A stretch of 64,000 bases of DNA from assembly GCF_000195575.1 (NCBI RefSeq), contig NC_015391.1, positions 2,220,363 to 2,284,362 of the forward strand, written 5' to 3'. The translations under genes were made by a program, and so were the position numbers. This document shows positions 2,999-60,872 of the stretch, one piece after another. Below the pieces are notes generated by a model. The model made no database searches. It was given only the letters and a program-made list of their open reading frames with translations, and had not been told where the DNA came from. Numbering within the stretch: position 1 is the stretch's first letter; each line of letters opens with the position of its first letter. This DNA comes from Carnobacterium sp. 17-4. Its GTDB lineage: Bacteria > Bacillota > Bacilli > Lactobacillales > Carnobacteriaceae.

Positions 2999-4789
2999 TT
3001 ACATTTCACCAGTTTTTTCTTGATACGTTTGCAGTTCATACATATCAAAGTAAGTTCCTTTTTTGTCGATCAATTCATCATGAGTCCCTTTTTCCACAAT
3101 TTCTCCGTTGCTCAAAACTAAAATTTGGTCTGCATCTTTTACAGTGGATAATCGGTGAGCAATGATTAAAGATGTTCGGTCTTTGCGCATATTGGCCAAA
3201 CCTTTTTGAATTTTCTCTTCTGTTTCAGTATCAATATTAGCTGTTGCTTCGTCAAGAATTAGAATACGCGGCGAACGTAGGATGGTTCTAGCAAAACTAA
3301 TTAATTGCTTTTCTCCGGCAGATAAACTTGCACCACGTTCGATGACCTTTGATGCGTAACCATGTTCCATTTCAGATATAAACTCATCTGCATAAACAAA
3401 CTCAGCTGCTTTTTTAACTTCAGCTTCTGTGTAGTCATTATTGTACATTCGAATATTGTCAGCGATATTCCCATAAAATAGGAAACTATCCTGCAGAACC
3501 AATCCCATTTTAGTTCGAAGACCTTCTATTGGCATGTCCTTCAGTGAGTGACCATCAATAGTGATCTCTCCTTCGTGATACTCGTAGAACCGCATCAGTA
3601 CATTAATAATAGAGCTTTTCCCTGATCCCGTTTGACCGACTAAGGCAACTGTCTCTCCTGGTTTCACTTCAAAGCTGATATTACGCAATACTTGCTTACT
3701 GCCATCGTATGAGAAGTTCAAGTTATCTACGCGAATATGGCCTTCTGTGATCATATCCGTGGTACCTGGCTTGGATTGTGGAGCAAGTTCTTCACTTTTC
3801 AGCAACTCTTGAACCCTGTGTCCTGATACAATTCCATCTTGTAACGAACTTAAACTGTTCATCATTTGGCTGATTGGTTGGAAAAATGATCGTGAATAAG
3901 CTGTAAACGCATATACCAAACCTATATTGATGTTCCCTTGAGTCCAATCTTGATACCCAAAAATAAGCAGCACCGCTACTAGAGCGACCGATTCAATCAC
4001 ATTGATTGCGGGTGCCAATAATAATGCGTTCATACTATACATAGAACGACGAGAAACGACATATTCTTCATTGATCGTATTGAAATCATCTACTAATCGC
4101 TCTTCTTGGTTGTATTTTTGAATAATACTCATCCCACTAATAGATTCACTTAAATTGGCATTCAACTGACTTAGTACTTTTCGCATACGACTGTAAACAA
4201 GTGTGCTCTTCTTTCGATAAATCCCTGCGATCCAAACAATAACCGGTGTAAATAGTAGAAAAACTAAAGCCATTCTCCAGTTCAGTGCAAACATAGCAAT
4301 TGTAATCGACAACACATTGAATACCCCAGTAGCAATGGTCAAAAAGACAGTCCAAAATTCTTTGATTGTCTCTGTATCATTTGTCACTCTGGAAACAACT
4401 GTCCCCGCTGGGGTCTGATCGAAATAGCGCATGCCAAGTAAAACAACCTTTTCATACAATTGATTTCGAATATTGCCCACGGTTCTTTCTGAAGCCGTGT
4501 TAAAGAGAAAGTCTTTTACATAAGCAAATACGGCTTTAAGAATGGTTAATATCCCGTAAAAAATTACTATACGTACCGTAATTTCGATTGTTGCTGTACC
4601 ATTTGCTAAATACGTATCAATGTAGCGCTGAATAATAATGGGTAAATATGCAGCGATAGCTGAACCCAAGGCTAGGAATACAAATGAAATGAGGAATAAG
4701 AACTGATAGGGCTTTGCAAAGCGAAATAGACTAAGTAAAATACGCCAAGATTCTTTAGTAGAAAAAGCCGTTTGTTTTTGTTTGTCCAT
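2999..4789 (-). CDS. Multidrug ABC exporter half, consensus ATPase subunit
   Basis: A 596-residue half-transporter: six membrane helices in about residues 1-330 and a nucleotide-binding domain from about 350. The Walker A is GQTGSGKSS, the signature LSAGEKQ, and the Walker B ILILDEAT keeps the catalytic glutamate. With the next gene it forms a heterodimer of the BmrCD/EfrCD/LmrCD kind, in which this subunit supplies the consensus hydrolysis residue. Its start ATG (4789-4787) overlaps the partner's stop by one base, so the genes are coupled. Such pairs export drugs, dyes or lipids; the substrate is not predictable here. No dedicated regulator is adjacent. Confidence 0.9.
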   Translation of the reverse strand: MDKQKQTAFSTKESWRILLSLFRFAKPYQFLFLISFVFLALGSAIAAYLPIIIQRYIDTYLANGTATIEITVRIVIFYGILTILKAVFAYVKDFLFNTASERTVGNIRNQLYEKVVLLGMRYFDQTPAGTVVSRVTNDTETIKEFWTVFLTIATGVFNVLSITIAMFALNWRMALVFLLFTPVIVWIAGIYRKKSTLVYSRMRKVLSQLNANLSESISGMSIIQKYNQEERLVDDFNTINEEYVVSRRSMYSMNALLLAPAINVIESVALVAVLLIFGYQDWTQGNINIGLVYAFTAYSRSFFQPISQMMNSLSSLQDGIVSGHRVQELLKSEELAPQSKPGTTDMITEGHIRVDNLNFSYDGSKQVLRNISFEVKPGETVALVGQTGSGKSSIINVLMRFYEYHEGEITIDGHSLKDMPIEGLRTKMGLVLQDSFLFYGNIADNIRMYNNDYTEAEVKKAAEFVYADEFISEMEHGYASKVIERGASLSAGEKQLISFARTILRSPRILILDEATANIDTETEEKIQKGLANMRKDRTSLIIAHRLSTVKDADQILVLSNGEIVEKGTHDELIDKKGTYFDMYELQTYQEKTGEM

Positions 4790-6543
4790 TATAACCCCTC
4801 CCCATCTAATTTTTTCTCTAGCTGTTGTTTTTGATACATATCACGGTACCAACCTTTTGTTTCGATTAATTGCTCGTGAGAACCACGTTCACTAATGCTT
4901 CCTTTTTCCATCACGATGATTTCATCTGCGTTCATGATTGAACTGATGCGGTGCGCAGAAATAATCGTTGTTTTGTTGCTTCGCTCTTTTTTCAATGAAT
5001 TTAAAATAGCTTCTTCTGTATGAGCATCTACAGCTGATAAAGAATCATCTAGAATCAGACAATCTGGCTCTACTGCTAAAGCGCGAGCAATAGCAATACG
5101 TTGTTTTTGTCCACCAGATAAAGAAACGCCTCTTTCACCCACTTCTGTATCGTACCCCTGTGGAAACTGCAAAATATCTTCATGAACATTCGCTAATTTT
5201 GCATATTTTTCAACTTCTTCTTGCGTTAAATTTGAATTCCCAAATCGGATATTTTCTCTAATGGTTGTTGAAAACAGAAAATTTTCTTGCGGGACGATGG
5301 CGATACCTTTTTTTAGCGATTCTAAAGCATAGTCCTTTATATTAATATCGTTATATGAAATCATACCTTCATATTGATCGTAATCACGTAACAACAATTT
5401 ATAGAGTGCGCTCTTTCCAGCACCCGTTCTGCCGACAACTCCCAGCATATTTCCTTTTGCTAAGTGAAAAGAAATATTGGTTAAAACAGGCTTCTCATCA
5501 TCTGGATAAGTAAACGATTTGATATCAAAAATAATATCTCCCTCTAATGCTTGACGATAAGGATTTTCCATTTCTACAATAGAAGGGGTATAAGCTAATA
5601 AAACATCTACTCTATCATAAGCTGCACTTCCTCTTTCAAGGGTATTGATTAGTCCACCTACTGCGAGCAACGGCCACTGCATCATACCGATGTAACTGAT
5701 AAAAGCTACTAAATCTCCAATCGATATCCGTCCACTTTGAACATAATTTCCACCAACTAATAAAGCAATCACATAAGTTAGCCCCATGACGATTTCTATA
5801 CTTGGATTTAAAGCTGCTTTTAATTTGTAGACACGTTGATTTTCATCGACAACATGTTGCGTTTCTTTTTTAAAAGCAGACAAATCTTCTTTTTCTTCAC
5901 CCAACGTTTTTAAGACCTTCATTCCTGTTACACTTTCTTGAACATGGTCATTCATTGATGAAAAAGCTTGTAGTGCACCACGGTAACGTGCATGGATCAT
6001 TTTTCCTAAATACGTTGAAACAATGATCAAAATAGGTAAAGGTAAAACTGACACTAGTGTTAGTTTCCAATCGATGAAAAAGAACATTGAAAAGAGTGTT
6101 ACACCACCTAATGATAAGGCATCAGTCAATGTCAATACACCATCCGCTGCAACAAATCGAATAGCTGCCAAGTCATTTGTGGCATGTGCCATCAAATCAC
6201 CCGTCCGGTATTTGTGGAAAAATTCTGAATCCATACGTGTGAAAAATGAAAACAACCGATTGCGCAATATAGATTCAATTAATGTTGAATTCCCAAATAA
6301 AGCCATTCTCCATCCATAACGTAAGGCATACATAATTAAGGCAAAAATAAGGATCAAACTCACCCAAAAAAGTAATATCTTCCAACTTAACGTTCCTGCT
6401 ATAAAATGGTCAATGATAGTCCCAATAATTTTAGGATTCATCACTTGTAAAATGGCACAAATAATTAGCGCAGAAACACCAAAAGAATAGCTTTTCCAAC
6501 GCAATTTAAAAAACCAGCCATATTTTTTTAACGTATTAAACAT
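4789..6543 (-). CDS. Multidrug ABC exporter half, degenerate-site subunit
   Basis: A 584-residue half-transporter with an N-terminal six-helix domain and a C-terminal ATPase domain: Walker A GRTGAGKSA, signature LSGGQKQR, Walker B CLILDDSLSAVD. Aspartate replaces the catalytic glutamate after Walker B. This marks the degenerate-site partner of heterodimeric exporters (BmrC-like, by family knowledge). The start ATG follows GAAAGGAAC, a good ribosome site. First gene of the two-gene operon, with the partner overlapping by one base. Confidence 0.9.
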   Translation of the reverse strand: MFNTLKKYGWFFKLRWKSYSFGVSALIICAILQVMNPKIIGTIIDHFIAGTLSWKILLFWVSLILIFALIMYALRYGWRMALFGNSTLIESILRNRLFSFFTRMDSEFFHKYRTGDLMAHATNDLAAIRFVAADGVLTLTDALSLGGVTLFSMFFFIDWKLTLVSVLPLPILIIVSTYLGKMIHARYRGALQAFSSMNDHVQESVTGMKVLKTLGEEKEDLSAFKKETQHVVDENQRVYKLKAALNPSIEIVMGLTYVIALLVGGNYVQSGRISIGDLVAFISYIGMMQWPLLAVGGLINTLERGSAAYDRVDVLLAYTPSIVEMENPYRQALEGDIIFDIKSFTYPDDEKPVLTNISFHLAKGNMLGVVGRTGAGKSALYKLLLRDYDQYEGMISYNDINIKDYALESLKKGIAIVPQENFLFSTTIRENIRFGNSNLTQEEVEKYAKLANVHEDILQFPQGYDTEVGERGVSLSGGQKQRIAIARALAVEPDCLILDDSLSAVDAHTEEAILNSLKKERSNKTTIISAHRISSIMNADEIIVMEKGSISERGSHEQLIETKGWYRDMYQKQQLEKKLDGEGL

Positions 6544-18899: not shown

Positions 18900-19403
18900 T
18901 TATACCCAATGGTTCGCTACTGCTCCATTTGCTCCTTCAACTGGATCTTTCTTAGGAAGTTGAACAGACGTAATCGCTTGTTTGATGCTTTCGTAATTTG
19001 CTGCTTTACCTTTTTGCATATCGGGTTCCAGACCTTCAGGATACGCACCAACAATTTTAAAGTCCTGACTTGCAGCTACTTTTTTGTGTGCTACACCTGC
19101 TGGGAGAAGTAGAACATCCCCTTCAGAAAAGGAATAGGGCTGTGTATCAGGACCGCCAAGTTGCACAGTTGCTTTACCAGCAATACAAGCCAATACTTCA
19201 TGAGTATTGGAATGAAAATGATGATAAGAAAAAATACCATTTACCCATCCATTTGTATAATCATTTTTTTCAAATAGATCCAGCACACTCTGTGCTGGAT
19301 CAGGTTCATTTAATAAATTAGCTACTACTTTAGGATAGTATAGAACAGGTAATGGATTGTTAGGAAATGGTTGATTTTCTTTGGGATAAAAAGTCTTTAC
19401 CAT
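18900..19403 (-). CDS. Cupin-domain protein
   Basis: A 167-residue protein containing one cupin barrel: HHFHSNTHEVLACIAGKATV (motif 1 with metal-binding His and Glu) and GDVLLLPAGVAHKK (motif 2 with His). This is the metal-site layout of RmlC-like cupins. The specific reaction is unknown. The start ATG follows GAAAGGAAGA. It lies between the SRPBCC and AKR genes; a shared detoxification or sugar-modification role is only a guess. Confidence 0.85.
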   Translation of the reverse strand: MVKTFYPKENQPFPNNPLPVLYYPKVVANLLNEPDPAQSVLDLFEKNDYTNGWVNGIFSYHHFHSNTHEVLACIAGKATVQLGGPDTQPYSFSEGDVLLLPAGVAHKKVAASQDFKIVGAYPEGLEPDMQKGKAANYESIKQAITSVQLPKKDPVEGANGAVANHWV

Positions 19404-19442
19404 AAGTTTTTCTTCCTTTCACTTCTCCAATCCAAAGCTTAT

Positions 19443-20291
19443 TTAATCAAACTCTTCGTATTCATTTGGATGTTGGCCTTCTACTCTACCCTCTTCACCT
19501 TTATCTAAGCTATCAATTTTCTGAATATCTTCTTTTGACAATTCAAAATCAAACACATCTAAATTAGCTTTTTGGTGATTAAAAAAAGAAGCTTTTACAA
19601 TTGGCATAACGCCATTTTGTAAATTCCAACGTAGAATAATTTGTGCTGGTTCTTTATCATATTTTTTAGCAATCGCAACAATTGTTTCATTTTCCAGTAC
19701 ATCATTAATTTCACGACCAAATGGACTCCATGCTTCTGTTAAAATACCTAGTTCTTTGTTTGCTTTAACTAAATCATTGTTATTAAAGTATGGATGGCGT
19801 TCAATTTGATTGGTAGCAGGCGTTACCCCTGTCTTTTCGATGATTCGCTCTAGATGTTCTGGTAGAAAGTTTGATACACCTATTGTTTTAATCAGACCAA
19901 ATTTTTGTGCATCTACTAATGCTTGCCACGCTTCCTCATATTTATCTTGTTTAGGCAATGGCCAGTGAATCAAATATTTATCAAAGGAATCAATACCGAT
20001 ACGATATAAAGATTCTTGAATCATCTTGATTGCCTTATCGTATTCATGTGCTTTTCCTGGTAGTTTTGAATTGATCATTAACTCTTCACGTGGAACAGAT
20101 GAACGTCGAATTGCTTCTCCTACCATTCCTTCATTCATATAGTTGGTTGAAGTATCGATAAGTCGATAGCCCGCATCAATTGCTGTGAGAACACTATTTA
20201 CACCTGTAGCTCCTTGGATATTTACCGTTCCAAATCCAATAACCGGTAAACTTGTTCCATCATTTAATTCGAATTTCTCAATTTTTGTCAT
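19443..20291 (-). CDS. Aldo/keto reductase
   Basis: About 282 residues from ATG 20291 (MTKIEKFELNDGTS). Longer in-frame starts to 20357 would add an unlikely hydrophobic tail and lack a ribosome site, whereas AAAGGA precedes 20291. AKR signatures are present: GYRLIDTSTNYMNEGMVGEA (catalytic Asp and Tyr), the catalytic Lys in NSKLPGK, and the catalytic His in YLIHWPLP. The TIM-barrel enzyme uses NADPH to reduce aldehydes or ketones; the substrate is not predictable. Confidence 0.9.
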   Translation of the reverse strand: MTKIEKFELNDGTSLPVIGFGTVNIQGATGVNSVLTAIDAGYRLIDTSTNYMNEGMVGEAIRRSSVPREELMINSKLPGKAHEYDKAIKMIQESLYRIGIDSFDKYLIHWPLPKQDKYEEAWQALVDAQKFGLIKTIGVSNFLPEHLERIIEKTGVTPATNQIERHPYFNNNDLVKANKELGILTEAWSPFGREINDVLENETIVAIAKKYDKEPAQIILRWNLQNGVMPIVKASFFNHQKANLDVFDFELSKEDIQKIDSLDKGEEGRVEGQHPNEYEEFD

Positions 20292-20434
20292 CTTACTTTC
20301 ATCCTTTCTATGAATCATTGCACCACTTAGTATAAAGGAATAAAGAAAAAGTATCATGTAATACGTCCTCGATAATTAGAGTACCAGCACAATTAAAGTG
20401 TGCCTTTCTCTTTTAATTTGATGGTTTAGTTCTA

Positions 20435-39952: not shown

Positions 39953-41320
39953 TTAAACTTTACTTTTTTCTAAGCCTTGTCGATAAAATTCTACCATATC
40001 TTCTTTAGGAACCATACTTCCTCCAGTAGCCCATGCAATATGTGTTGCTTGATTCATCTTTTCAGTCAATCCTTTTTCTGCTAAATAACGTTTTCCTTCT
40101 AGTGTACCGAATAAACGAGCTACTCCTGGTACACCAGCTAAAGCTGCTGGTTCTAAGTAAATTTTCTCTTTATCAATCATGGCTGTCAATAAATGTTGCG
40201 CTTCTTTTTCTTGCAGTGTAAACCCGCCGTCAAAGAAGTTTTTCATTAATTTCGAAACAAAACCTGATGTTCTCGGAACTGCTAAACCATCCATTCCCGT
40301 TTTACCATCAATATCAAAATCATCTATCGATACTTCGTCATACTCATTGGTAATCAATCCTAGCATCATTGAAGGCATGTGTGCTGGCTCTGAAAAGAAA
40401 CAATGAACATTGTCCCCATAAACTTGTTTTAATCCGAATGTGATGCCGCCTGGGCTGCCACCAATACCACATGGCAAGTAAACAAATAATGGATGGTCTT
40501 TATCAACTTGTATTTTTTGTTGATCTAATTGCTTTTTAAGTCGACTTCCGGCTACTGTATAGCCTAAAAATAAATCCACGGAATGTTCATCATCTACAAA
40601 ATAACAGGATGGATCTTGATCTGATAGCATTCTTCCATTCTCCACTGCTTTTGTAAAGTTTGTATTGTGTTCAACAACTGTTACACCATGGGATCTAAGC
40701 AAATCTTTTTTCCATTGCTTTGCTTCTACAGACATGTGAACAGTAACTTCAAATCCTAGTTTTGCTCCCATTATCCCTACACTAATTCCTAGATTCCCAG
40801 TTGTTCCTACCATAATTTTATGTTTAGCAAAGAAATCGCGAAAATCACTACTTGCGAAAATAACATAGTCTTCATCGATACTCTTCAACAATCCATTTTC
40901 TAACGCCAATGTCTCCGCATGTTTTAATACCTCATAGATTGCTCCTCTTGCCTTGATCGTTCCTGCAATTGGTAACGTGTCATCACGTTTTAGTAATAGT
41001 TTTCCTTCAATAATTGTATCATAATAACTCTCCAATTCGTCCTTAATTGCTGGAATTGCCGATATTTTTGATTCAATGATTCCTTTTGTTTTTTCAGTCT
41101 CTGGAAATGCGGTTTCAATATATGAAGCAAAACGGGCTAAACGTGCTTCAGCATCATCTACATTGGTTTTAGAAAGTTCCACTTTTTTTGAGGCCGTTGC
41201 AAAATCACTCTTGAAACGATTAATCCAAAAAACATTTTTCGTGTTCATTATATCTTTTAAGACTGGAATTTCTTCTTTCCAATTTCCCAATGTTTTCCCT
41301 GCAATCACTTGTTCATTCAT
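39953..41320 (-). CDS. dsdA: D-serine ammonia-lyase
   Basis: A PLP enzyme of about 455 residues. The start is ATG 41320 after TAGGAGG; an in-frame GTG at 41341 precedes the ribosome site. The PLP lysine lies in LPIAGTIKARGAIYEV, and the phosphate-binding loop in MVGTTGNLGISVG. The glycine loop LPCGIGGSPGGITFG is typical of DsdA. It converts D-serine to pyruvate and ammonia through 2-aminoacrylate. Last gene of a four-gene operon with serS, a PTS_EIIC_2 protein and ridA. Confidence 0.92.
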   Translation of the reverse strand: MNEQVIAGKTLGNWKEEIPVLKDIMNTKNVFWINRFKSDFATASKKVELSKTNVDDAEARLARFASYIETAFPETEKTKGIIESKISAIPAIKDELESYYDTIIEGKLLLKRDDTLPIAGTIKARGAIYEVLKHAETLALENGLLKSIDEDYVIFASSDFRDFFAKHKIMVGTTGNLGISVGIMGAKLGFEVTVHMSVEAKQWKKDLLRSHGVTVVEHNTNFTKAVENGRMLSDQDPSCYFVDDEHSVDLFLGYTVAGSRLKKQLDQQKIQVDKDHPLFVYLPCGIGGSPGGITFGLKQVYGDNVHCFFSEPAHMPSMMLGLITNEYDEVSIDDFDIDGKTGMDGLAVPRTSGFVSKLMKNFFDGGFTLQEKEAQHLLTAMIDKEKIYLEPAALAGVPGVARLFGTLEGKRYLAEKGLTEKMNQATHIAWATGGSMVPKEDMVEFYRQGLEKSKV

Positions 41321-41439
41321 ATTATTTCCTCCTAAGATCACTCTAGTGGTGTTTTTATTATTTTCAAATTTTAGACCGATTATTATTTCTTATAAATCTT
41401 TTTGACTTATCTGTTTTATTAAAATATAAAATCAGATGA

Positions 41440-42711
41440 TCAATGAATGACCTCAATACCATCCATATAAGGAATGAGTATAGTTGGAACAAGAATACTA
41501 CCGTCTAACTGTTGATAGTTTTCTAAAATAGCAGCTACCGTTCTTCCTACTGCTAATCCAGATCCGTTTAGAGTATGCACAAATTCAATTTTTCCTTTTG
41601 AATCACGATACCGGATCTTAGCTCTTCGTGCCTGGAAATCTAAACAATTTGAACACGAAGATATTTCTCGATAAGTATCTTGTGAGGGAAACCACACTTC
41701 TATATCATACGTTTTTGTAGCAGAAAACCCCATATCTCCTGTACTTAATACAATAGTCTTATATGGAATCTCTAATAGTTGCAATACTTCTTCAGCATCA
41801 TGCGTCATCTTTTCTAATTCATCAAAAGAAGATTCTTTGTCGGTAAATTTGACCATTTCAACTTTATGGAATTGGTGCATCCGGATCAATCCGCGTGTAT
41901 CTCTTCCAGCACTTCCAGCTTCTGAACGGAATGAAGGACTTAATGCGGTAAAATAAATAGGCAGTTTTTCGTATTCAATAATTTCATTAGCGTAATAATT
42001 CGTCAACGGAACCTCAGCAGTTGGAATCAACACTAAATTTTCATTTTCTATACTAAAAACGTCTTCCTTAAATTTAGGAAACTGTCCTGTACCAAACATC
42101 GCCGATTCCTTCACTAGGTAAGGTGGGATTACTTCTGTATACCCATGCTTTCTAGTGTGTAAATCTAGCATGAAGTTATAAACAGCTCTTTCCAATCTAG
42201 CTCCTAGTCCTTTGTAATATACAAAACGTTTACCTGCAACTTTTGACCCTCTTACAAAATCGAGTATACCTAGATTCTCTCCCAGTTCGTAATGAGGTAA
42301 TACCTCAAATTCAAATTTTTTTTTCTCACCATTAACGCGTATTTCTTCGTTTTCTTGTTCATCGTTTCCTATAGGAACACTTCCATCTGCTATATTCGGA
42401 AGTGTAAAGAGAATATCATTTAATTCTTCCTCGATACTCGTCAGTTGTTCTTGTAACTTTTTAATTTCTTTATTCTTTTCTTTTGTATCGTAGTCCACTT
42501 CATCAGTATAGACTCCATTTTTTTTCAACTGCTGAACTTTTTTGTAAGCCATATTTTTTTCATTTCTCAAATATTCAACTTCTTTTAGTTTAGTTCTTCG
42601 ATCCTCATCTAAATTTATAATTTCCTTGATTACCCTTTTTTCTATCCCTCTATCTATCATACGTTGGTGATAATGATCTTCGTTTGTTCTGATTCTACTA
42701 ATATCAAGCAT
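41440..42711 (-). CDS. serS: Seryl-tRNA synthetase (D-serine-operon copy)
   Basis: A 423-residue class II synthetase. N-terminal coiled-coil arm (about residues 30-105, rich in K and E), then motif 2 [20 protein letters not shown] and motif 3 [18 protein letters not shown]. It charges tRNA-Ser with L-serine. Unlike a typical housekeeping serS it has no T-box leader and sits inside the dsdA/ridA operon, so it is probably a second, condition-specific copy. That could offset misuse of serine or D-serine, or resist a SerRS inhibitor. Whether another serS exists cannot be seen here. Confidence 0.9.
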
Positions 42712-42768
42712 TAATTGCCCCCCTCACGGTTATCAATTTGTTATCGTTAGCACATACCTTTTACTTCT

Positions 42769-43836
42769 TTAAAATTTAATGTCAGATACAACTTCAACCG
42801 TTTTCTTTTTCGCCAACCCACCGTCTGATCTAACTTCATCAGCCGTTACGATTTTGGTGTTTCTAAAGATGTACGATCCAAGATAGCCGCTGGCCACGCT
42901 GACAATGATACATCCTAAGGCCGTGATCAGTACTTTCCCTGCTGGATTGTACGCGAACATAACTGCAAAACCAGCAATCGGAGTTGCTGTCCCAGGAGTG
43001 TTGTTTACCAATCCCATAAGCGCCACAATAATTCCGCTTGCTGCCCCTCCAATAAAGTTCGTTCCATAAACGGGAAGAGGGTTCGCAGAAATAATGTCAG
43101 CTTGAGTCAATGGTTCTATAGCTACAGCTATGGTATCTTTTTTACTTCCAAATTTCATTTTGCTAAACAAAACATAATTCATAAAAGATGATCCAAAGAC
43201 AGCTAATGCTCCGATAGCCATTGGAACTCCAGTTAAGCCTAACATCGCTGTTAACGCCATCGAACTTAAAGGCGCTGTTGCGACTACTGTGATAATCCCC
43301 CCTAAGATAATCCCCATCATTATCGGACTAGCGTTAGCAGTGGACGTCAATATTTCACCAATTTGAAGCAGGGTAGCGTCTACGAGAGGAGAGCTTATTG
43401 TCCCAATCAATCGAGCTAAAGGAGCACCTACAACAATAATAACGATTAAATCTAAACCGCCCGGTATCTTTTCTTCCATCTTCTTTATAACAAAAGAAAT
43501 TAGATATCCAGCGATAAACCCAGGCAATATTCCCATACCTGATAAAGAAAGCCCTACCAAAACAGCGTATACTGGAGAAACGCCTAAAGCTAAAGGAACT
43601 AATATCGCTGCTGCTACACCTCCTAGGCTTCCATTAGCAGCACCTACTTCTCCTAAAAATTTTAAATTCAGTACATTTCCAAAAAAGGCGTAGTGAAAAG
43701 CTTCCACTAAAAAACTTGCACAAGCTGCATTAGCCAGCGCTCCCATTGCTTTCGAGCCGTGTGGCGCTTTGTAATTGAATATCGTGAAAAAAGACAGTAC
43801 CGCTAATAGTAAAACCGTTCCAATTAAAATATCCAT
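42769..43836 (-). CDS. PTS_EIIC_2-family membrane protein
   Basis: A 355-residue membrane protein with about nine or ten helices and glycine-rich loops (GAANGSLGGVAAAILVPLAL, ATAPLSSMALTAMLG). It matches the family annotated as PTS EIIC type 2, usually encoded without its own IIA or IIB. In this operon a role in serine or D-serine uptake is more likely than sugar uptake (inference). The start ATG follows GAGGGGA. The C-terminal ~45 residues are charged and cytoplasmic. Confidence 0.75.
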   Translation of the reverse strand: MDILIGTVLLLAVLSFFTIFNYKAPHGSKAMGALANAACASFLVEAFHYAFFGNVLNLKFLGEVGAANGSLGGVAAAILVPLALGVSPVYAVLVGLSLSGMGILPGFIAGYLISFVIKKMEEKIPGGLDLIVIIVVGAPLARLIGTISSPLVDATLLQIGEILTSTANASPIMMGIILGGIITVVATAPLSSMALTAMLGLTGVPMAIGALAVFGSSFMNYVLFSKMKFGSKKDTIAVAIEPLTQADIISANPLPVYGTNFIGGAASGIIVALMGLVNNTPGTATPIAGFAVMFAYNPAGKVLITALGCIIVSVASGYLGSYIFRNTKIVTADEVRSDGGLAKKKTVEVVSDIKF

Positions 43837-49701: not shown

Positions 49702-49734
49702 GCTGTCTTCAGGCTGTCTTCAGGCTGTCTTCAG
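49702..49734. repeat. Three tandem copies of an 11-bp unit
   Basis: GCTGTCTTCAG is repeated exactly three times head to tail. It lies in the gene-free gap between the helicase operon terminator and the PTS promoter. No function assigned; it could have arisen by slippage. Confidence 0.9.
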
Positions 49735-49782
49735 GCTTTCAATCCTCACCTTCTGTTCAGTAATTAAAAATAAATAAAAACC

Positions 49783-49821
49783 CCGCCTCATACAAAAGAA
49801 TTTTCTTTTGCACACGGACGG
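49783..49821 (-). terminator. Terminator of the helicase/ATPase/TerB operon
   Basis: Inner arms CAAAAGAA (49793-49800) and TTCTTTTG (49803-49810) plus outer CCGCC/GGACGG (49783-49787, 49816-49821) form a long hairpin. On the minus strand it is followed by GGTTTTTATTTATTTTT. About 130 bases past the helicase stop. Confidence 0.8.
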
Positions 49822-49953
49822 AATCATTGATTTCATCTTGCTACCTTATTTTATGAATCCTTTACAGTTTTCATTTTTTCCAGTACTAAAGTAAAACACT
49901 GATTATCATACTATAAGCACTATAATAAAACGACTTTTATATTTCAGGACCTT

Positions 49954-52035
49954 TCACAACTCACGTAGAAAAAAGTTTTTCAAAATCCACTTTATTTTCA
50001 ATGATTTAGGTACTAATTGCATAAATTTTTGGTGGACAATTAATTCTTCAATAGTCTTCTCGTTCTTCTCTAGGTATGCCACGACCGTATCCAGAGAACC
50101 TTCATTCTTGTTCAGTCGTTCCATCATCTTTTTCATATTCGGACCTGTGATCAAAGAATACTTGTCTTGCAATTGGTATTCCCCTTCCTCCTCAGCAACA
50201 CTTTTAATAAGAAGTAATAATGCGATATTAAAACGAGTTCCTTTAAAGGTTACGACACCAATATTAGCTTGATTATCCTCGTACCAATAATTCCCGTCAT
50301 CATAGACCATTTTACTTTTCATAAACTCAAAATCCTGGTTGATTTTCTCATTGTTTAAGCTTGCGTATGTTCTATTTTTTAACAGCATTTCCATATTTTC
50401 CCGCACTTCATTGGAAACAAATCCTGCGTCACTGATAAATTTTGGGGCCTTTCCTTCTGTTGTCTTTTCGACCATAATACGTTTTGCTTTAATGTCTATA
50501 TCTTTTACATTCCATACCCTACCTGCCAACAAAATTTTACTTTCGAGTTGAATGTCAGGTGTAAACGGTAGACTACCGATACGCTCATGTTGGTAATGAA
50601 CGGAAAAATCACTGGTTGTCAGAAACATGGCATAGAAATCTCTGAAGCGTAGCAATCGTTCCCCTTCTAAGCCCACAATTGCTTCTTCACCCATGATTTC
50701 GATGAACTCTTTTTCTACCATATAGTCAATTAAGGTAACTAAATCGGCATCTGAAATCTCTGTCCATACTGGAAAAAATTTGTTCATTTGCCTTAATTGC
50801 TCTAGTCGCACACTTGTTTTTTGGAAAAGTATGGCCATAATCTGATGTGCCAATGCATTGTATGGCACATCAATCATTTCCGTAGCGTCCATTTTTTTTC
50901 TTTCCAGTAAATCCAAAGCCGAATAAGTTTGAAGCATGTCCCAAGGGTCATCTTCCACGATATGTAAGATGCTCTGATGCGTTCTACGGCCACTTCGCCC
51001 TAAACGTTGGCTGAGAGAGGATGTGGATGGAGGTGAGTTATACTGTACCACGCTATCCACTGTTCCAATGTCTATTCCCAATTCTAACGTCGAAGTACAA
51101 GTAATCGTAAACAGATTCTGCTCGTTGTTTTTCGCAAAAAATTCAACTTCTTCTCGTAAGACTTTATCCACTGATGAGTGATGTGCAAAGTATCGAATAG
51201 GAAAATTCTCTTTCGTAGCCATTTTTTCCAATTTATGGGTGATTTCTTCTACTTTATTCCGCGAATTTGGAAAAACCAACATCGTTTCTTTTTGGGAATA
51301 CTGATAGATAGCGGCTAAAGATTTTCTTGAAATAAATGGGCCTGCTTCGCCACTTGTATAGTCTATTGTAACGAGTAGATCATTTTTATCAGAGTCTACG
51401 AGAATATCTGTGTTGCGATTGCTTCCAAAGAAATCTTTTGCATAACTAAAATCTATCTTGCTTAGGGTCGCACTCATTGCAATGAATCGTGGATTCTGCA
51501 TGAATAGACTAATCCGCTGTATCAGGGATTGAAGGTGGATCCCACGTTCCGTTCCCAGAAAACTATGCAGTTCATCAATGATAATCCATTCTACCCCTTG
51601 AAATAACTGTTGTGCTTCACCAGGACGGTTCACTAGCATACCTTCAATAGACTCGGGTGTAATCAGTAGAATACCTTTTGGATCTTTTACAACCTTTCTT
51701 TTTTGTGCTTGGGATGCCTCACCATGCCATCTGGTAATTGGAACATCTAAATATAGACATAGTTCACTAATGCGTTGAAATTGGTCATTTATTAAGGCTT
51801 TTAATGGTGAAATGTACAATATCTTAAGTCCAGCATCCCAATCTTCCACACCATTTACTGCCGGAATAAAAGCTGCTTCTGTTTTTCCTGAAGCGGTCGG
51901 CGCAGACAAAATGAGATTATGATCTGTATCAGCGATTTGTTTGATAGATGCACTTTGTATTCTAGTTAATTTTGACCAGCCTTTATCGTATATATAGTGT
52001 TGAATATCTCTTTTTAAACTATCAAAAGCTTGCAT
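49954..52035 (-). CDS. Lhr-like superfamily II DEAD/DEAH helicase
   Basis: A 693-residue helicase. Motif I LSAPTASGKTEAAF (~residue 40), Ib TPESIEGML, DEAD-like motif II IIDELHSF (~150), motif III SATLSK, motif V STLELGIDIG and motif VI QRLGRSGRR (~350). A C-terminal ~300-residue accessory region follows, resembling Lhr-type winged-helix domains. It should translocate on DNA or RNA with ATP. It is the last gene of a three-gene operon and overlaps the ATPase gene by one base. The resemblance is to helicases of BREX (BrxHI) and Ter-linked DNA-processing clusters, by family knowledge. Confidence 0.85.
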   Translation of the reverse strand: MQAFDSLKRDIQHYIYDKGWSKLTRIQSASIKQIADTDHNLILSAPTASGKTEAAFIPAVNGVEDWDAGLKILYISPLKALINDQFQRISELCLYLDVPITRWHGEASQAQKRKVVKDPKGILLITPESIEGMLVNRPGEAQQLFQGVEWIIIDELHSFLGTERGIHLQSLIQRISLFMQNPRFIAMSATLSKIDFSYAKDFFGSNRNTDILVDSDKNDLLVTIDYTSGEAGPFISRKSLAAIYQYSQKETMLVFPNSRNKVEEITHKLEKMATKENFPIRYFAHHSSVDKVLREEVEFFAKNNEQNLFTITCTSTLELGIDIGTVDSVVQYNSPPSTSSLSQRLGRSGRRTHQSILHIVEDDPWDMLQTYSALDLLERKKMDATEMIDVPYNALAHQIMAILFQKTSVRLEQLRQMNKFFPVWTEISDADLVTLIDYMVEKEFIEIMGEEAIVGLEGERLLRFRDFYAMFLTTSDFSVHYQHERIGSLPFTPDIQLESKILLAGRVWNVKDIDIKAKRIMVEKTTEGKAPKFISDAGFVSNEVRENMEMLLKNRTYASLNNEKINQDFEFMKSKMVYDDGNYWYEDNQANIGVVTFKGTRFNIALLLLIKSVAEEEGEYQLQDKYSLITGPNMKKMMERLNKNEGSLDTVVAYLEKNEKTIEELIVHQKFMQLVPKSLKIKWILKNFFLREL

Positions 52036-53363
52036 CAGTAAACCTCTATTTCATCATGGTCATCAGTGTCTTTCTCCACCATGGAAGTCTTTATTCCAAA
52101 GCGTTCAGTAAGAATTTGAGTAAAGGAGTACTCCTGGTTTTGGCGTAGTAGAGATAAAATTTCAATGTAATCTTTAATTACCGCACGCGGTGTCAAGAAG
52201 GCCTCTGCACCTGGGCGGTTCAACTGTGCTTCCATGTATTCTTCAATATCGCCATCCTTTACAATTAAAGCAGTTTGATTAGCGACATTGTATATTTCCA
52301 ACAGCTTTTTCAAAAGAATAAAAATTTCTTCAGGAGTCAGTGGCTTCAAATCGATAACGGTACTATTTACATTAATATAAGCTTTATTTTTCATCAGCTC
52401 ATTGCCAAATCGTGTTTTCAAAGCGCCATAGCTTGCTAAGCCTCTTCGCTCATCATACACCGTATTTTTCGTTGCTCCAAAATTTATAAATAATCCTTTT
52501 GCTTCATTCGTTTTTGTTTCGTTATACAAATTGAGGATCATTTCATAATTTTTTTCCCTTGTCAGCGATCGAGGTAATTTGTACAAATTGACTGATTCAT
52601 CAAAATTGATGACAAATCCTTTATAACCAATTTTCAAAAATAATTCTGCTAGATTTTTTAATGCAATAAGATAATTTGAATCGTTGATGATATTTTTGAT
52701 CCCTAATTCTTTAGAAGCTTCTGTTTTGGTCGTGATATCCCCACGAATCCATCGAATAGCTTCAATTTGAAGAGAAACATTGTCTTCTGCAACTCCTTCA
52801 AAATATTTCATCAGCGCTTGCCCAAACTCATAGGATAATCCCGATGAGTAAAAAGAGTTCGTTGTCTTTAAAATGATGTTTTCCACTAATTTCCAATTAG
52901 ATTTTTCTAGCAATGTAGCAACGGCAAGCTCACTTTCTGCAGCAATCTGCTCGAGTAGTCCTTGAATCCATTGTTGTACGATTGTTTCAATTGCATTCCC
53001 ATTACGGTTATTCTTGATCGTTATTTTATTGACGACTTCATTATAAAGCGCTAGAGCTTTTCCAGACGAATCGTAAAAACGTCGTGTTGGAGTTAAATCA
53101 ATTGTGGATACCACGAAATTCTTTTGAAGTGCTAACGATTCGATCGTCCGCAAAACGAAACTTTTCCCAGATCCAAAATCCCCCACCCAAAAACGCAAAT
53201 CACTATTGCCGTCTTCTAATTTTTGTAAGGTGGCGATAATTTCCTCGACTTCATTGCTTCTCCCTACTAGTACGTGCTGTACTCCTCTAATGGGAACAAC
53301 ACCAGCTTCTAAAGAGTCAATAATTGCTTGGGCATCCTTCTTTCTCAGTTTCTTTTCAACCAT
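52035..53363 (-). CDS. BrxD/DUF2791-type ATP-binding protein
   Basis: A 442-residue P-loop ATPase. The start AIIDSLEAGVVPIRGVQHVL VG is the DUF2791/BrxD opening; Walker A is VGDFGSGKSFVLRTI (~residue 70) and Walker B is GFVINFDESVNL (~240). Such proteins are ORC/AAA-like ATPases found in BREX loci and with TerB-type proteins. It is tightly coupled: eight-base overlap with the TerB-like gene and one-base overlap with the helicase. It probably loads or powers a DNA-bound complex with those partners (inference). No PglZ, BrxC or methylase is present. Confidence 0.85.
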   Translation of the reverse strand: MVEKKLRKKDAQAIIDSLEAGVVPIRGVQHVLVGRSNEVEEIIATLQKLEDGNSDLRFWVGDFGSGKSFVLRTIESLALQKNFVVSTIDLTPTRRFYDSSGKALALYNEVVNKITIKNNRNGNAIETIVQQWIQGLLEQIAAESELAVATLLEKSNWKLVENIILKTTNSFYSSGLSYEFGQALMKYFEGVAEDNVSLQIEAIRWIRGDITTKTEASKELGIKNIINDSNYLIALKNLAELFLKIGYKGFVINFDESVNLYKLPRSLTREKNYEMILNLYNETKTNEAKGLFINFGATKNTVYDERRGLASYGALKTRFGNELMKNKAYINVNSTVIDLKPLTPEEIFILLKKLLEIYNVANQTALIVKDGDIEEYMEAQLNRPGAEAFLTPRAVIKDYIEILSLLRQNQEYSFTQILTERFGIKTSMVEKDTDDHDEIEVY

Positions 53364-55179
53364 CGATCCATTCCCTCATTTCTTCCATAAAATCATCCTC
53401 AATAAGTATTTGCTGTTGATAAATAGTTAATACTTGATCATCAAATACTTCGTATAAAATTTCATTTAATTCATTAAGATATGCTTGATAGAGCTTGCCT
53501 TTGTTAGCAGCTTGTTGTTTAAACTTTTCTAAAGATATTCCATTGTTTCGCACTAAGTAGCTCAAGAATTCCATTTGCTCCGTTGGTTGGCTTACTTCTT
53601 GTTCATTCGCATTCGCCTCTTCTAAAATAGAGACAGACACAGCATTGTTAGATTCCAACTGCTCTGTTGCCACCGATATCTCCTTGTAAACAAGAGTGTT
53701 TGGAACTCTATCTGGATTTATTTCTTCCTCACCCAAATAATCATCCACCATATCAATGATATTATACAGCGCTGAATTGGATGCGGTGATCAATTCATTG
53801 TCCAACTTGATTTTTCTTCGTGCCGGCTGCGCTAGTTTATCCAACAATGCTGGTAGATTTTCGTAAACTAACTCTTGGGCAATCAACAACTCTTGATACT
53901 CTTCTTGTCGGGTTGAATGAATGAAGTCATCACGTTGCTTTTGTTGTGCTTTTATTAATGGCAATTCCCTCTTTTCCATTAAGAAAATAACTACCCTGTG
54001 TTTATTCGAATCGGTGCTATTTTTGATTACCTTAGTGGCTATTTTTTTCAAATCTGGATCTTTGGCTATATCTTCAAGAAACATACTAACTTTTCCAACT
54101 GGTTGATCAATAATAAAATTAGCCGCTTCATTCCATGCAGTCTTGTACACCGTTCTCAAACTTATTATGGTTGGGTAATCAAAGTCTAAATCAGTCTTTT
54201 GGTTCAGATTCTCTTGGATTTTCTGAACGGTTTCTTTTGGCAAATACTTTTGCAGACTTTGTTGGCTCTCTTCAGCAGCTAACAAACGAAACCCTTCGAT
54301 TTCTTTGCGAATACTGTTTTCAGTAAAGAGATAGATATCAGCTGATAGACGATTGGTTTCATTCCAAAGACGAGAATCATCCATTGGCAACTGGAAATAT
54401 TGCCTGAAATAATTATTAGGCTTTATTTTCCAGCTAATTGTTTCATCTTCTAAGTCATCTAATACAATTTGTAACAGTTCTGTGTATTTCTGCAAACAAA
54501 GGGTCATAAGGGCTGGTAGTTCAGTAAACTTGGTGGGTCTTTTCATTAATTTATTGAAATAATTCATTTCAGTACTATTAAATATCTGTTCATTTCGTAA
54601 CTCTCCTGATGGATCCCACCAGATAATTTTTGTACCAAAGGAGGTTAATCTAAATTGTTCTCTCGTTTCTTCATCCGGAAAGGGAAGGCTTTGACGGTGT
54701 TCATCGATTTCTTTCATAAGAAAGTGACAGATATCCTTAGATAGCATAGTCTTTATTAGATAAGATATAAAATCAGCCGATGCTTTACTCTCTTGTCTGT
54801 AATATGAACAGACTACATCTTTGGATAGCCGATAAATTTCGTCAAAAACAGATTCCCGATAATAGTAATGCTCAGACTTCACATGTTTGATATTTTTACG
54901 TTTCTTTTTCAATTCCACATCAACAACATCACATATTCTATTAAATAATGCATCAATTTCTCGTTCTAATTGAGGGGTGAAATTATCATTCATTCTTATA
55001 TAGGGCGTAATATATCTTGCCCATGCTTTTTTTTCATCCTTTTTAAACTGTTTCTTTTTCACAATAACATCTCTTGGATTAATAAAGGATTCTTCATTAT
55101 CTACTAGTTCGATTATGGACATTTTTTGTTGTTCGGTTAGTTGCTTTTTTTGAAATAAATTGTTTAGAAATTCAAACAT
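53356..55179 (-). CDS. TerB-N/TerB-C-like protein
   Basis: A 607-residue soluble protein, highly charged and mostly helical. Residues ~50-110 (KAWARYITPYIRM...FNRICDVVDVELKKKRKN) and the tail (~535-600: EFLSYLVRNNGISLEKFKQQ ...LNELNEILYEVFDDQVLTI) resemble TerB-N and TerB-C halves of tellurite-resistance-type proteins found with DUF2791 ATPases and helicases. I base this on pattern and neighbourhood, not on a search. First gene of the operon, with GGGGGAG ahead of ATG 55179 and its own promoter. It may be a structural or sensing subunit of the complex. Confidence 0.6.
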   Translation of the reverse strand: MFEFLNNLFQKKQLTEQQKMSIIELVDNEESFINPRDVIVKKKQFKKDEKKAWARYITPYIRMNDNFTPQLEREIDALFNRICDVVDVELKKKRKNIKHVKSEHYYYRESVFDEIYRLSKDVVCSYYRQESKASADFISYLIKTMLSKDICHFLMKEIDEHRQSLPFPDEETREQFRLTSFGTKIIWWDPSGELRNEQIFNSTEMNYFNKLMKRPTKFTELPALMTLCLQKYTELLQIVLDDLEDETISWKIKPNNYFRQYFQLPMDDSRLWNETNRLSADIYLFTENSIRKEIEGFRLLAAEESQQSLQKYLPKETVQKIQENLNQKTDLDFDYPTIISLRTVYKTAWNEAANFIIDQPVGKVSMFLEDIAKDPDLKKIATKVIKNSTDSNKHRVVIFLMEKRELPLIKAQQKQRDDFIHSTRQEEYQELLIAQELVYENLPALLDKLAQPARRKIKLDNELITASNSALYNIIDMVDDYLGEEEINPDRVPNTLVYKEISVATEQLESNNAVSVSILEEANANEQEVSQPTEQMEFLSYLVRNNGISLEKFKQQAANKGKLYQAYLNELNEILYEVFDDQVLTIYQQQILIEDDFMEEMREWIDG

Positions 55180-55224
55180 TTTTAGAACTCCCCCTTTCCA
55201 ATTTACTAGGCAGAATATCCTCTA

Positions 55225-55253
55225 AGTATACGTCTACTGACATGTAGATTCAA
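55225..55253 (-). promoter_or_regulatory. Promoter of the TerB/ATPase/helicase operon with dyad spacer
   Basis: Minus strand TTGAAT (55253-55248), 17-base spacer, TATACT (55230-55225). The spacer is almost entirely a dyad, TCTAC-ATGTCA-GTAGA (55233-55248), a candidate operator for an unknown repressor. It lies 45-75 bases before the first ATG. Confidence 0.65.
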
Positions 55254-56658: not shown

Positions 56659-57627
56659 ATGAAAAAAAAGTTAAGTCAGTACATAGGATTGGTTGCTGTT
56701 AGTATTCTATTAGTAGCATGTGGAGACAATGTTGCTTCAGACCAAGAGTCACAAAGTAGTATGAGTGATCTAGCTACTGAAAGTTATGAAAATCAAATTA
56801 TTGAAATCAATGGTTTAGCAGATCATTACCATACAGGTGATTCTGTTGAACTAAGTGCTCTGCCAGAAAAAGAAACTGAAACAACTCAGTGGCAGTGGTA
56901 TACAAGAGAAAACGAAGAAAGCGAGTGGAAAGTTGTTTCTGGTCAAAGAACTAAAGACTTTATTGGAGAAGCTACTGCTGATGGGTTAGAAATCAAAGCT
57001 GCCTTAGTAGATGATAATGATGAGCCTTATGCTGAATCGGAACCTGCTAAAATTGTTATTGATGACCACCATGGTCATGATGAAGCGAGCAAACAAATCT
57101 ATGCAGGCTATTTTGAAGATGATCAAGTAGAAAATCGTGAACTATCCGATTTTGAAGGAGAATGGCAATCTGTCTTTCCTTACCTTCAGTCTGGTGATTT
57201 AGATGAGGTCTTTGAACATAAAGCGGAAGAAAGTGACGCTATGACTGCTGCAGAATACAAAGACTACTACACTATTGGATATGAAACGACTGTTGATCAA
57301 GTTGTTATTGAGGGAAATCAAGTTACTTTTTATGATGATGAGAAAGACTATTCGGGAACTTACGAAAATGATGGCTATGAAATACTTAATTACGAAAAAG
57401 GAAATAGAGGCGTACGTTTTGTCTTTAAATTAGTTGACGGTTCAGACGAAATGCCTGAATACATTCAATTTAGTGACCACAATATTTTCCCGGAAGAATC
57501 TCACCATTATCATTTATTCTGGGGAGATGACAGAGACACAGTTTTAGAAGAAATGGATAACTGGCCAACTTATTATCCTGCTGACTTAGATGCAACTGGA
57601 CTTGTTCAAGATATGTTAGCTCACTAA
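56659..57627 (+). CDS. ZinT-domain zinc-binding lipoprotein with extra N-terminal domain
   Basis: A 322-residue lipoprotein: signal peptide with lipobox LLVACG, then an added domain (~residues 47-140), then ZinT (~143-322). ZinT metal ligands are visible in FSDHNIFPEESHHYHLFWGD. It scavenges periplasmic-equivalent Zn and hands it to an AdcA-type receptor. The added domain begins INGLADHYHTGDSVEL and ends PYAESEPAKIVIDDHHGH. It recurs inside the next gene. ATG follows TTGGAGG. In streptococci ZinT is fused to AdcA; here it is separate. Zur box directly upstream. Confidence 0.88.
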   Translation: MKKKLSQYIGLVAVSILLVACGDNVASDQESQSSMSDLATESYENQIIEINGLADHYHTGDSVELSALPEKETETTQWQWYTRENEESEWKVVSGQRTKDFIGEATADGLEIKAALVDDNDEPYAESEPAKIVIDDHHGHDEASKQIYAGYFEDDQVENRELSDFEGEWQSVFPYLQSGDLDEVFEHKAEESDAMTAAEYKDYYTIGYETTVDQVVIEGNQVTFYDDEKDYSGTYENDGYEILNYEKGNRGVRFVFKLVDGSDEMPEYIQFSDHNIFPEESHHYHLFWGDDRDTVLEEMDNWPTYYPADLDATGLVQDMLAH

Positions 57628-57734
57628 ACTATTTTGAAATCAGTCTTTAAATGTACTATCCATAAACAAATTTTAAATAAATGATAGCAATCCATTTGTT
57701 AAATGCGTTTAGCAGATGGATTCAGGAGGAAAAT

Positions 57735-58991
57735 ATGAAAAGAAAATGGTTTGTTTCAAGTATGCTCAGTTTAGTTGCAGGTGTGATCCTTTTTGGATGT
57801 GGACTAGAGCGATCTAACAGCGAAGCAAAGAATAGCTCAGAATTATCAGTTGTTACCACTTTTTACCCAGTTTATGAATTTACAAAAGAAGTAGCTGGTG
57901 ATCGCGCTGATGTTTCTATGATCATAAAACCTGGAACTGATGCTCACGGTTTTGAACCAAGTGCTCGAGATGTTGCTGCTATAAATGATGCAGATGTGTT
58001 TGTTTACAGTAGTGGTGAAATGGAGCCTTGGGTTGGTAGCCTGATGAGTTCACTTGATAGTGAAGACCTTATTGCTGTTCGTACAGCTGATGCTGATAAT
58101 TTTATTAGTACTGAAACGCATGAACATGAGCATACAGATAGCAGTGATCACAGTGATGAGTCCCTTGAAGTGGATGTGGATGGAGATCTGCCTACTACCG
58201 TTGAAGTTAATGGACTAGTTGGTCACTACCATACTGGAGATATTGTTCAACTTGTTTCCGATTCAACTGAGATGAAAGATTCAACTAAACTACAGTGGTA
58301 TATTCGTGAAGCTAACGCAGACTGGAAGGCCATCTCAGATCAAACACAGGAAACATTTGAGTATGAAACAACTGGCGAAAGTTTTGACGTCAAAGTTGTC
58401 TTTTCTGACAAAGCTGGTACTCCATACGCTGAATCAGCTCCTGTTGAGATCGTTCTCGATGATCATGAAGGTTCAGATCCTCACATCTGGCTAGATCCAG
58501 TATTAGCTCAAGACCAAGTGACTGTAATCAAAGAGGCATTGATTCAAGCTGACCCTGAGGGAAAAGCTATATATGAAGAAAACGCTGAAAAATTTATTTT
58601 AGAACTTCAAAAATTAGATGAAGAGTATAAAACAGCTTTGTCTTCTGCAACTAATCGTGTGTTTGTCGTTCAACATCAAGCATTCGGATATATTGCTCAG
58701 CGATACAACTTAGAACAAATTGCTGTGGGAGGCATTTCTACTGAAGTAGAACCTAGCCCCTCACGTATTGCGGAAATCAGTGAATTAGTTAAGGAATATG
58801 ACGTTCCAGTTATTTATTACCAACAAGGTGCAGACTCTTCTATTGCACAAACAGTAGGACAAGAAACAGATACTGATATAGAAGTTTTATATGACCTTGA
58901 AAGTGTCTCTCAAGAAATGCAAGACGAAGGAATGGACTATCTAAGTTTAATGCGTAAGAATTTGGAGGCTTTACAATTAAGCATTCATTGA
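57735..58991 (+). CDS. AdcA/ZnuA-like zinc-binding lipoprotein with domain in metal loop
   Basis: About 418 residues from ATG 57735 after AGGAGGAAAAT; a longer in-frame start at 57681 has no ribosome site. Lipobox ILFGCG. The cluster A-I metal receptor has ligand histidines in GTDAHGFEPS, SDPHIWLDP and VVQHQAFGYIA, and an aspartate in QQGADSS. Between the first and second halves, where AdcA has a short His-rich loop, there is a loop HEHEHTDSSDHSD followed by an inserted ~90-residue domain (about 152-243: VNGLVGHYHTGDIVQL...YAESAPVEIVLDDHEG). It is homologous to the N-terminal domain of the ZinT neighbour. Permease and ATPase genes are not here. Confidence 0.88.
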   Translation: MKRKWFVSSMLSLVAGVILFGCGLERSNSEAKNSSELSVVTTFYPVYEFTKEVAGDRADVSMIIKPGTDAHGFEPSARDVAAINDADVFVYSSGEMEPWVGSLMSSLDSEDLIAVRTADADNFISTETHEHEHTDSSDHSDESLEVDVDGDLPTTVEVNGLVGHYHTGDIVQLVSDSTEMKDSTKLQWYIREANADWKAISDQTQETFEYETTGESFDVKVVFSDKAGTPYAESAPVEIVLDDHEGSDPHIWLDPVLAQDQVTVIKEALIQADPEGKAIYEENAEKFILELQKLDEEYKTALSSATNRVFVVQHQAFGYIAQRYNLEQIAVGGISTEVEPSPSRIAEISELVKEYDVPVIYYQQGADSSIAQTVGQETDTDIEVLYDLESVSQEMQDEGMDYLSLMRKNLEALQLSIH

Positions 58992-60152: not shown

Positions 60153-60872
60153 ATTATTTTTTCACTTATTAGTCTGACCGTTGTTACTAGTTTTATAGAT
60201 TCTTTCAACCCTTTTGCTATTGCCCAACAATTTACTTTACAAGGTTTGTTAAAAAAAACACACCACATTTGGTATTACATTGTAACGTTGTTTTTAACAA
60301 ACTATTTAGCTAGTTTCGTTTTCTATACCGGTGTATCCATTTTAAATGAACAGTTTTTGACAACCTATTGGACGATGCTTAAATTTCCAACTGCAGTCTT
60401 AGCCTTTATTGCTGGTAGTATTCTTATTTGGTACAGTATTCGTTCTTTTTTAATCAATTGGAAAACTAGACAGTTTCTTATGGATAAGAGTGATAATGAG
60501 TCAAAAGAACTAGAATTGAAGTTTTCTGAAAAAAAAATCACTCCAGCTTCTTTGATAGGTATTGGTTTTACAACTACGGTCGTTGAATTTTCAACAGCTG
60601 CTCCTTTTATTGCCTATTTGACAGTTGTTCAGCAATTTCAACCGACACTTGGTCAATTATTATTGCTACTACTAATCTATAACCTTATTTTTTCTTGGCC
60701 TTTATTTGCCTTGTATTTTCTGTTTGTAGGTTTTCAAACAACCTTTGAAAAGATATACACACGTATGAACTTTGTGCTACAAATGGTTTCAGCTTTTCTA
60801 CTTCCCATTTTATTTTTCATTATTGCCTTTTTATTAATAACATATGCAATAAACGCCTTTTTCAGCTTATAA
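60153..60872 (+). CDS. Polytopic membrane protein, apparent ATT (AUU) start
   Basis: The frame from 60153 encodes FSLISLTVVTSFIDSFNPFA as a first membrane helix, strongly gene-like, but no ATG, GTG or TTG lies between AGGAGG (60142-60147) and this segment. The only start-type codons at proper spacing are ATT at 60153 or 60156. The first conventional codon (TTG 60246) would delete helix one and its DSFNPFA motif, seen in LysE- and CcdA-like families. The protein is about 239 residues with six helices. Function unknown; perhaps export of a small solute or electron transfer. It is preceded by a terminator-bearing leader, so expression is probably tightly limited. Confidence 0.7.
   Translation: MIFSLISLTVVTSFIDSFNPFAIAQQFTLQGLLKKTHHIWYYIVTLFLTNYLASFVFYTGVSILNEQFLTTYWTMLKFPTAVLAFIAGSILIWYSIRSFLINWKTRQFLMDKSDNESKELELKFSEKKITPASLIGIGFTTTVVEFSTAAPFIAYLTVVQQFQPTLGQLLLLLLIYNLIFSWPLFALYFLFVGFQTTFEKIYTRMNFVLQMVSAFLLPILFFIIAFLLITYAINAFFSL

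Follow-up and report, generated by a model that had tools for sequence, protein, structure and literature searches.

Three overlapping genes of Carnobacterium sp. 17-4, encoding a TerB-type protein, a BrxC/BrxD-type ATPase and a helicase, raise the question of which system they form and how this system would work. We have analyzed them within a stretch of 64,000 nucleotides of contig NC_015391.1 (positions 2,220,363 to 2,284,362), called here the window. The trio is very probably a complete Shango anti-phage operon, sngA-sngB-sngC, since the best PADLOC matches of the three proteins are SngA (E 1e-18), SngB (E 1e-140) and SngC (E 6e-183), in the same gene order A-B-C as in PA14. The assignment of SngB and SngC is the firmer one, and that of SngA is weaker because its model matches residues 218-605 only. 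Pfam recognizes the domains DEAD and Helicase_C in SngC, BrxC_BrxD in SngB (E 3e-118) and TerB_C in SngA (E 5e-9; 36.9 bits, with a cut-off of 26.3). Thus, the TerB homology anticipated in an earlier model-made annotation of this DNA (the original prediction) exists in the form of TerB_C and not of the TerB_N that was also expected, and its calls of a BrxD-like ATPase and of a Lhr/BrxHI-like helicase are supported by both Pfam and PADLOC. The defence role that it suggested gains support from the Shango matches of all three proteins, and, with regard to the ATPase and helicase motifs that it noted, most Walker A and DEAD-box residues fall in columns that are at least 95% conserved (33 SngB and 32 SngC sequences). 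The sequences compared here show which genes these are and in what order they lie, that their frames are intact and under purifying selection, and that the whole unit is either present or absent at one chromosomal place.

Shango is an already described system, and the locus is mostly ordinary, otherwise one more instance of it. The available text of PMC10250203 reports that Shango inhibits phages in Pseudomonas aeruginosa, that the PA14 system (TerB-like protein, ATPase and helicase) reduces the plating of many phages, not of all, by 10- to 100-fold and also protects cultures in liquid, and that a separate report found Shango in Escherichia coli. The TerB domain named for Shango in the available part of PMC10952713 is PF05099. 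The window operon shares with the described system its three genes, their order and the three best models, and differs from it in SngA, which has no TerB or TerB_N detectable by Pfam and is only 15-18% identical to three aligned plasmid-borne copies.

The trio consists of three intact genes (Table 1) that overlap by 8 bases and 1 base, as first noticed, and both overlaps are also seen in the close relatives L026-L036: the 8-base overlap in 11 out of 11, and the 1-base overlap in all 10 that have an intact downstream gene. The proposal that the operon has its own promoter is also upheld, since, in an alignment inspected by eye, both hexamers are kept in the four operon-carrying genomes of the genus (the window included) and the spacer dyad in three of them. 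This conservation is better evidence than the promoter scan, which found 16 promoter-like sites in comparison with a mean of 22.0 in shuffled sequences, a count that is not above chance and that is no evidence by itself. The terminator is only plausible. The minus strand of 49760-49840 folds with -25.1 kcal/mol and has a T-rich run after the hairpin, which agrees with the original prediction, but a strict scan found no terminator on the minus strand (three on the plus strand; shuffle mean 3.7) and inspection of the other three operon-carrying genomes by eye revealed no counterpart of the hairpin.

Table 1. Features of the Shango operon in the window (positions of the window; aa, amino acids; SF2, superfamily 2).
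Feature	Position	Strand	Description
SngA	53356..55179	-	607 aa; TerB_C at residues 448-601; WWD motif at 187-189; predicted, possibly winged-helix-like C-terminus at ~533-606
SngB	52035..53363	-	442 aa; BrxC/BrxD-type P-loop ATPase
SngC	49954..52035	-	693 aa; SF2 DEAD/DEAH helicase, BrxHI/Lhr-like
Sigma-70-like promoter TTGAAT-17-TATACT	55225..55253	-	CTAC..GTAG dyad in spacer; kept in genus
Probable terminator hairpin, then T-rich run	49783..49830	-	Fold only

Within the genus, SngA, SngB and SngC (the last at 86-100% identity) are encoded in the same four of the six genomes, and the other two lack both SngA and SngB, their only helicase matches being at 21-25% identity. In the four carriers, the trio diverges from a DegV gene. 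The occupied locus L038 reads cupin, aldo/keto reductase, SngC-SngB-SngA and DegV, and the empty locus L040 reads cupin, aldo/keto reductase and DegV; in L041, which also lacks the trio, an aldo/keto reductase and a short open reading frame (ORF) precede DegV. The cupin and aldo/keto reductase genes of the window lie at 18900-20357 and are separated from SngC by sugar and amino-acid genes that span about 29 kb. A search for SngB in the 12 remaining genomes of the family gave no match. Across the order, SngB occurs in 24 of 295 genomes, always adjoined by SngC (24/24). The idea of a triplet conserved across genomes holds. A recent origin of the window copy from a phage or plasmid is not supported: 50,697 phage records contained nothing that matched SngB, and 72,556 plasmid records nothing that matched SngA. 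SngB-like proteins of less than 60% identity are present in 691 plasmid records, and the three that were inspected belong to trios of a TerB-type protein, an ATPase and a helicase.

Among named genomes, the trio was detected at 11 loci, of which 10 carry the title Trichococcus and one carries the title Sedimentibacter. The latter (L036, Sedimentibacter sp. SX930) carries a Shango that falls among those of Trichococcus in the SngB tree, and a genome with identical contig coordinates belongs to that genus in a second genome collection; its title is probably a mislabel. In this tree, which was rooted at midpoint and carries a long-branch warning, 15 copies group together with a support of 100/99, namely those of the window genus and 11 of Trichococcus type, and the copies of two other genera placed in the family of Trichococcus fall outside this group. 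The window RpoB is 98.2-99.7% identical to that of five congeners and 84.2-84.4% to that of four genomes of the Trichococcus genus, whereas SngB is 93-95% identical within the genus and 87-89% to the Trichococcus genus. SngB has therefore diverged more than RpoB within the genus and less than RpoB between the genera. Vertical descent alone would hardly produce this pattern, which suggests horizontal transfer between the window genus and Trichococcus lineages, with the one gene RpoB as a thin yardstick of vertical descent. RpoB was chosen because seryl-tRNA synthetase (SerRS) failed for this purpose: the window SerRS shares only 60-61% identity with its best match in congeners and therefore seems to be a second copy.

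The three subunits evolve at different rates. In six pairs from the genus, the ratio of nonsynonymous to synonymous substitution rates (dN/dS) was 0.169-0.263 for SngA, 0.031-0.049 for SngB and 0.050-0.086 for SngC, the pairwise SngA value being 3.4-6.8 times that of SngB and 2.1-4.2 times that of SngC. Of 33 SngB loci, 30 have an upstream ORF of more than 200 aa, and 28 of these form the alignment A1, which leaves out L035 (SngA in two pieces) and L030 (over-extended start call); outside the 30 stand L068, near a contig end, L074, with the upstream gene in two pieces, and L069, where none was found. Shango genes in two pieces lie at 6122-8008 of L035 (SngA) and at 4285-6350 of the metagenome-assembled L033 (SngC), and the gene in two pieces at 7478-9358 of L074 is SngA by position. 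All 28 SngA relatives scanned match the PADLOC SngA model and TerB_C, and their N-terminal domains differ between lineages: TerB_N was found in 11, TM2 in 4 and TerB in 2 (both plasmid copies), and the window SngA has TerB_C only. TM2 stands at the N-terminus of SngA in L065, L066 and L070, and in L067 below the Pfam cut-off; its presence suggests a membrane-bound variant of Shango. The WWD motif is invariant in the 16 rows of the alignment A3. No solved relatives of SngA or SngB were found by sequence, and an initial model of SngA, built from 13 sequences, had a mean predicted local distance difference test (pLDDT) of 56.5 and yielded no informative fold match. A second model (16 sequences, mean pLDDT 73.3) is mostly helical and ends in a helix-helix-helix-strand-strand-helix arrangement with a pLDDT of about 70, which may be winged-helix-like. 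The weak Foldseek matches of this model include short ones to DNA-binding domains of transcription regulators (about 75 columns, best probability 0.80), which we assume to cover the C-terminus.

We tentatively consider that the three proteins may form a DNA-surveillance complex that blocks the replication of phage DNA and in which SngA determines the specificity. As an SF2 helicase from the group that includes BrxHI, SngC would engage replicating or aberrant phage DNA, and SngB would assemble with it and, at the expense of ATP, license or remodel the complex. SngA, which evolves faster, varies at its N-terminus and may end in a DNA-binding winged helix, would sense or recruit the target and set the specificity. 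The complex would block replication instead of cutting DNA, since Pfam detects no nuclease domain in SngA, SngB or SngC; a sub-threshold Cas3-like match of SngC covers its helicase part. A broader reading appears rather unlikely, namely that SngA is an exchangeable specificity subunit on a conserved SngB-SngC motor pair, with a lineage-specific N-terminal module (TerB_N, TM2 or neither), and that, following horizontal exchange between the window genus and Trichococcus, one such Shango became fixed in the latter as genus-wide innate immunity.

Several results weigh against the interpretation of the locus as a Shango anti-phage operon. SngA is divergent, its PADLOC match starting only at residue 218, and neither TerB nor TerB_N is matched by Pfam in the window protein; the possible winged helix comes from the second SngA model, with its mean pLDDT of 73.3 and without a Foldseek match reaching E 0.001. 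Unrelated neighbours reach dN/dS values similar to those of SngA (ZinT-like protein, 0.129-0.198; ZnuA-like protein, 0.062-0.177; membrane protein at 60246-60872, 0.139-0.165; TPM-like protein, 0.270); the rate of SngA is thus high within its operon and not within its region, which weakens the case for an exchangeable SngA. The synonymous distance of the trio to L038 (0.48-0.50) is twice that of DegV (0.26), indicating a mixed history of the locus. The enrichment in a defence island expected in the original prediction was not observed: PADLOC gave no match for 16 of the 18 neighbouring window proteins, and the other two matches, WYL for a regulator of the phosphotransferase system (PTS) type and DpdF for a topoisomerase-like protein, are probably due to generic domains. 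Finally, SngB is encoded in all 13 genomes of the second genus, which we infer to be Trichococcus since 11 of the 13 places coincide in their contig coordinates with the 11 named loci, even in two that are only 51% and 63% complete; the count refers to SngB only, the whole trio having been seen in the 11 loci. Such a genus-wide presence is unlike what would be expected of a defence system.

These last findings would fit a DNA-repair or stress-response machine of Shango ancestry that turned housekeeping in the window lineage and in Trichococcus, as would the flanking genes that recur on one side in up to 8 of the 11 second-genus loci and the strong purifying selection on SngB and SngC. We regard this alternative as improbable. 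Uniform presence, which would have spoken for it, holds for SngB in the second genus and not in the window genus, where two of six genomes lack the trio, and the 12 other family genomes lack SngB. Moreover, one Trichococcus record has SngA, and a metagenome-assembled record SngC, split over two frames, suggesting that they are dispensable unless these are sequence errors, and the divergence of SngB relative to RpoB suggests horizontal transfer.

PglZ is a defining feature of the bacteriophage exclusion system (BREX), and we know of no BREX component that is a TerB_C protein. A reduced or decayed BREX locus, suggested by the BrxC_BrxD domain of SngB and by the BrxHI similarity of SngC in PADLOC (E 4e-114), is hardly credible and was rejected, because SngB scores 467.7 bits with its own PADLOC model vs 154.9 with BrxD and 154.5 bits with the NCBIfam BrxD model vs a cut-off of 350, the genome has only one BrxC/D protein, and PglZ had no match in it, in a search that matched in 2 of 14 control genomes. 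The ATPase and the helicase are related to BrxD and BrxHI, and the original prediction, right in its domain calls and in pointing to defence, erred in framing the trio as a minimal stand-alone BREX and missed the name Shango. The best PDB sequence matches of SngC, 5v9x and 7lhl, are both named only ATP-dependent DNA helicase and are presumably Lhr; SngC differs from these helicases in its length (693 aa vs 877 and 1508 aa), and it stays far under the cut-offs of the NCBIfam long-helicase models. The available part of PMC12278908 assigns SngC, together with BrxHI, DruE and DpdJ, to a clade that is potentially distinct.

The mechanism of Shango is listed as unknown in the available part of a 2026 review (PMC12926258). 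Among the matches listed in a literature search, titles and abstract openings mentioned no Shango mechanism and no Shango in Carnobacterium, and the sole paper with both words was a 2019 carp-gut study. Close copies, occupied and empty sites in one genus, and a fast SngA beside conserved motors make these loci a natural set that can be used to find which Shango subunit sets phage specificity.

Other observations concern the surroundings of the operon. Past its end, beside PTS genes, the short direct repeat ggctgtcttca is present in at least three copies (49707-49735). The topoisomerase-like protein encoded at 9204-11354 matches the PADLOC DpdF model with E 5.5e-87. An ammonia-lyase-like gene lies beside the divergent SerRS gene and a transporter gene (39953-43836), and the matching place in L039 has only SerRS fragments. 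The products of two adjacent genes (56659-58991), presumably both involved in zinc uptake, are about 43% identical to each other over part of their length.

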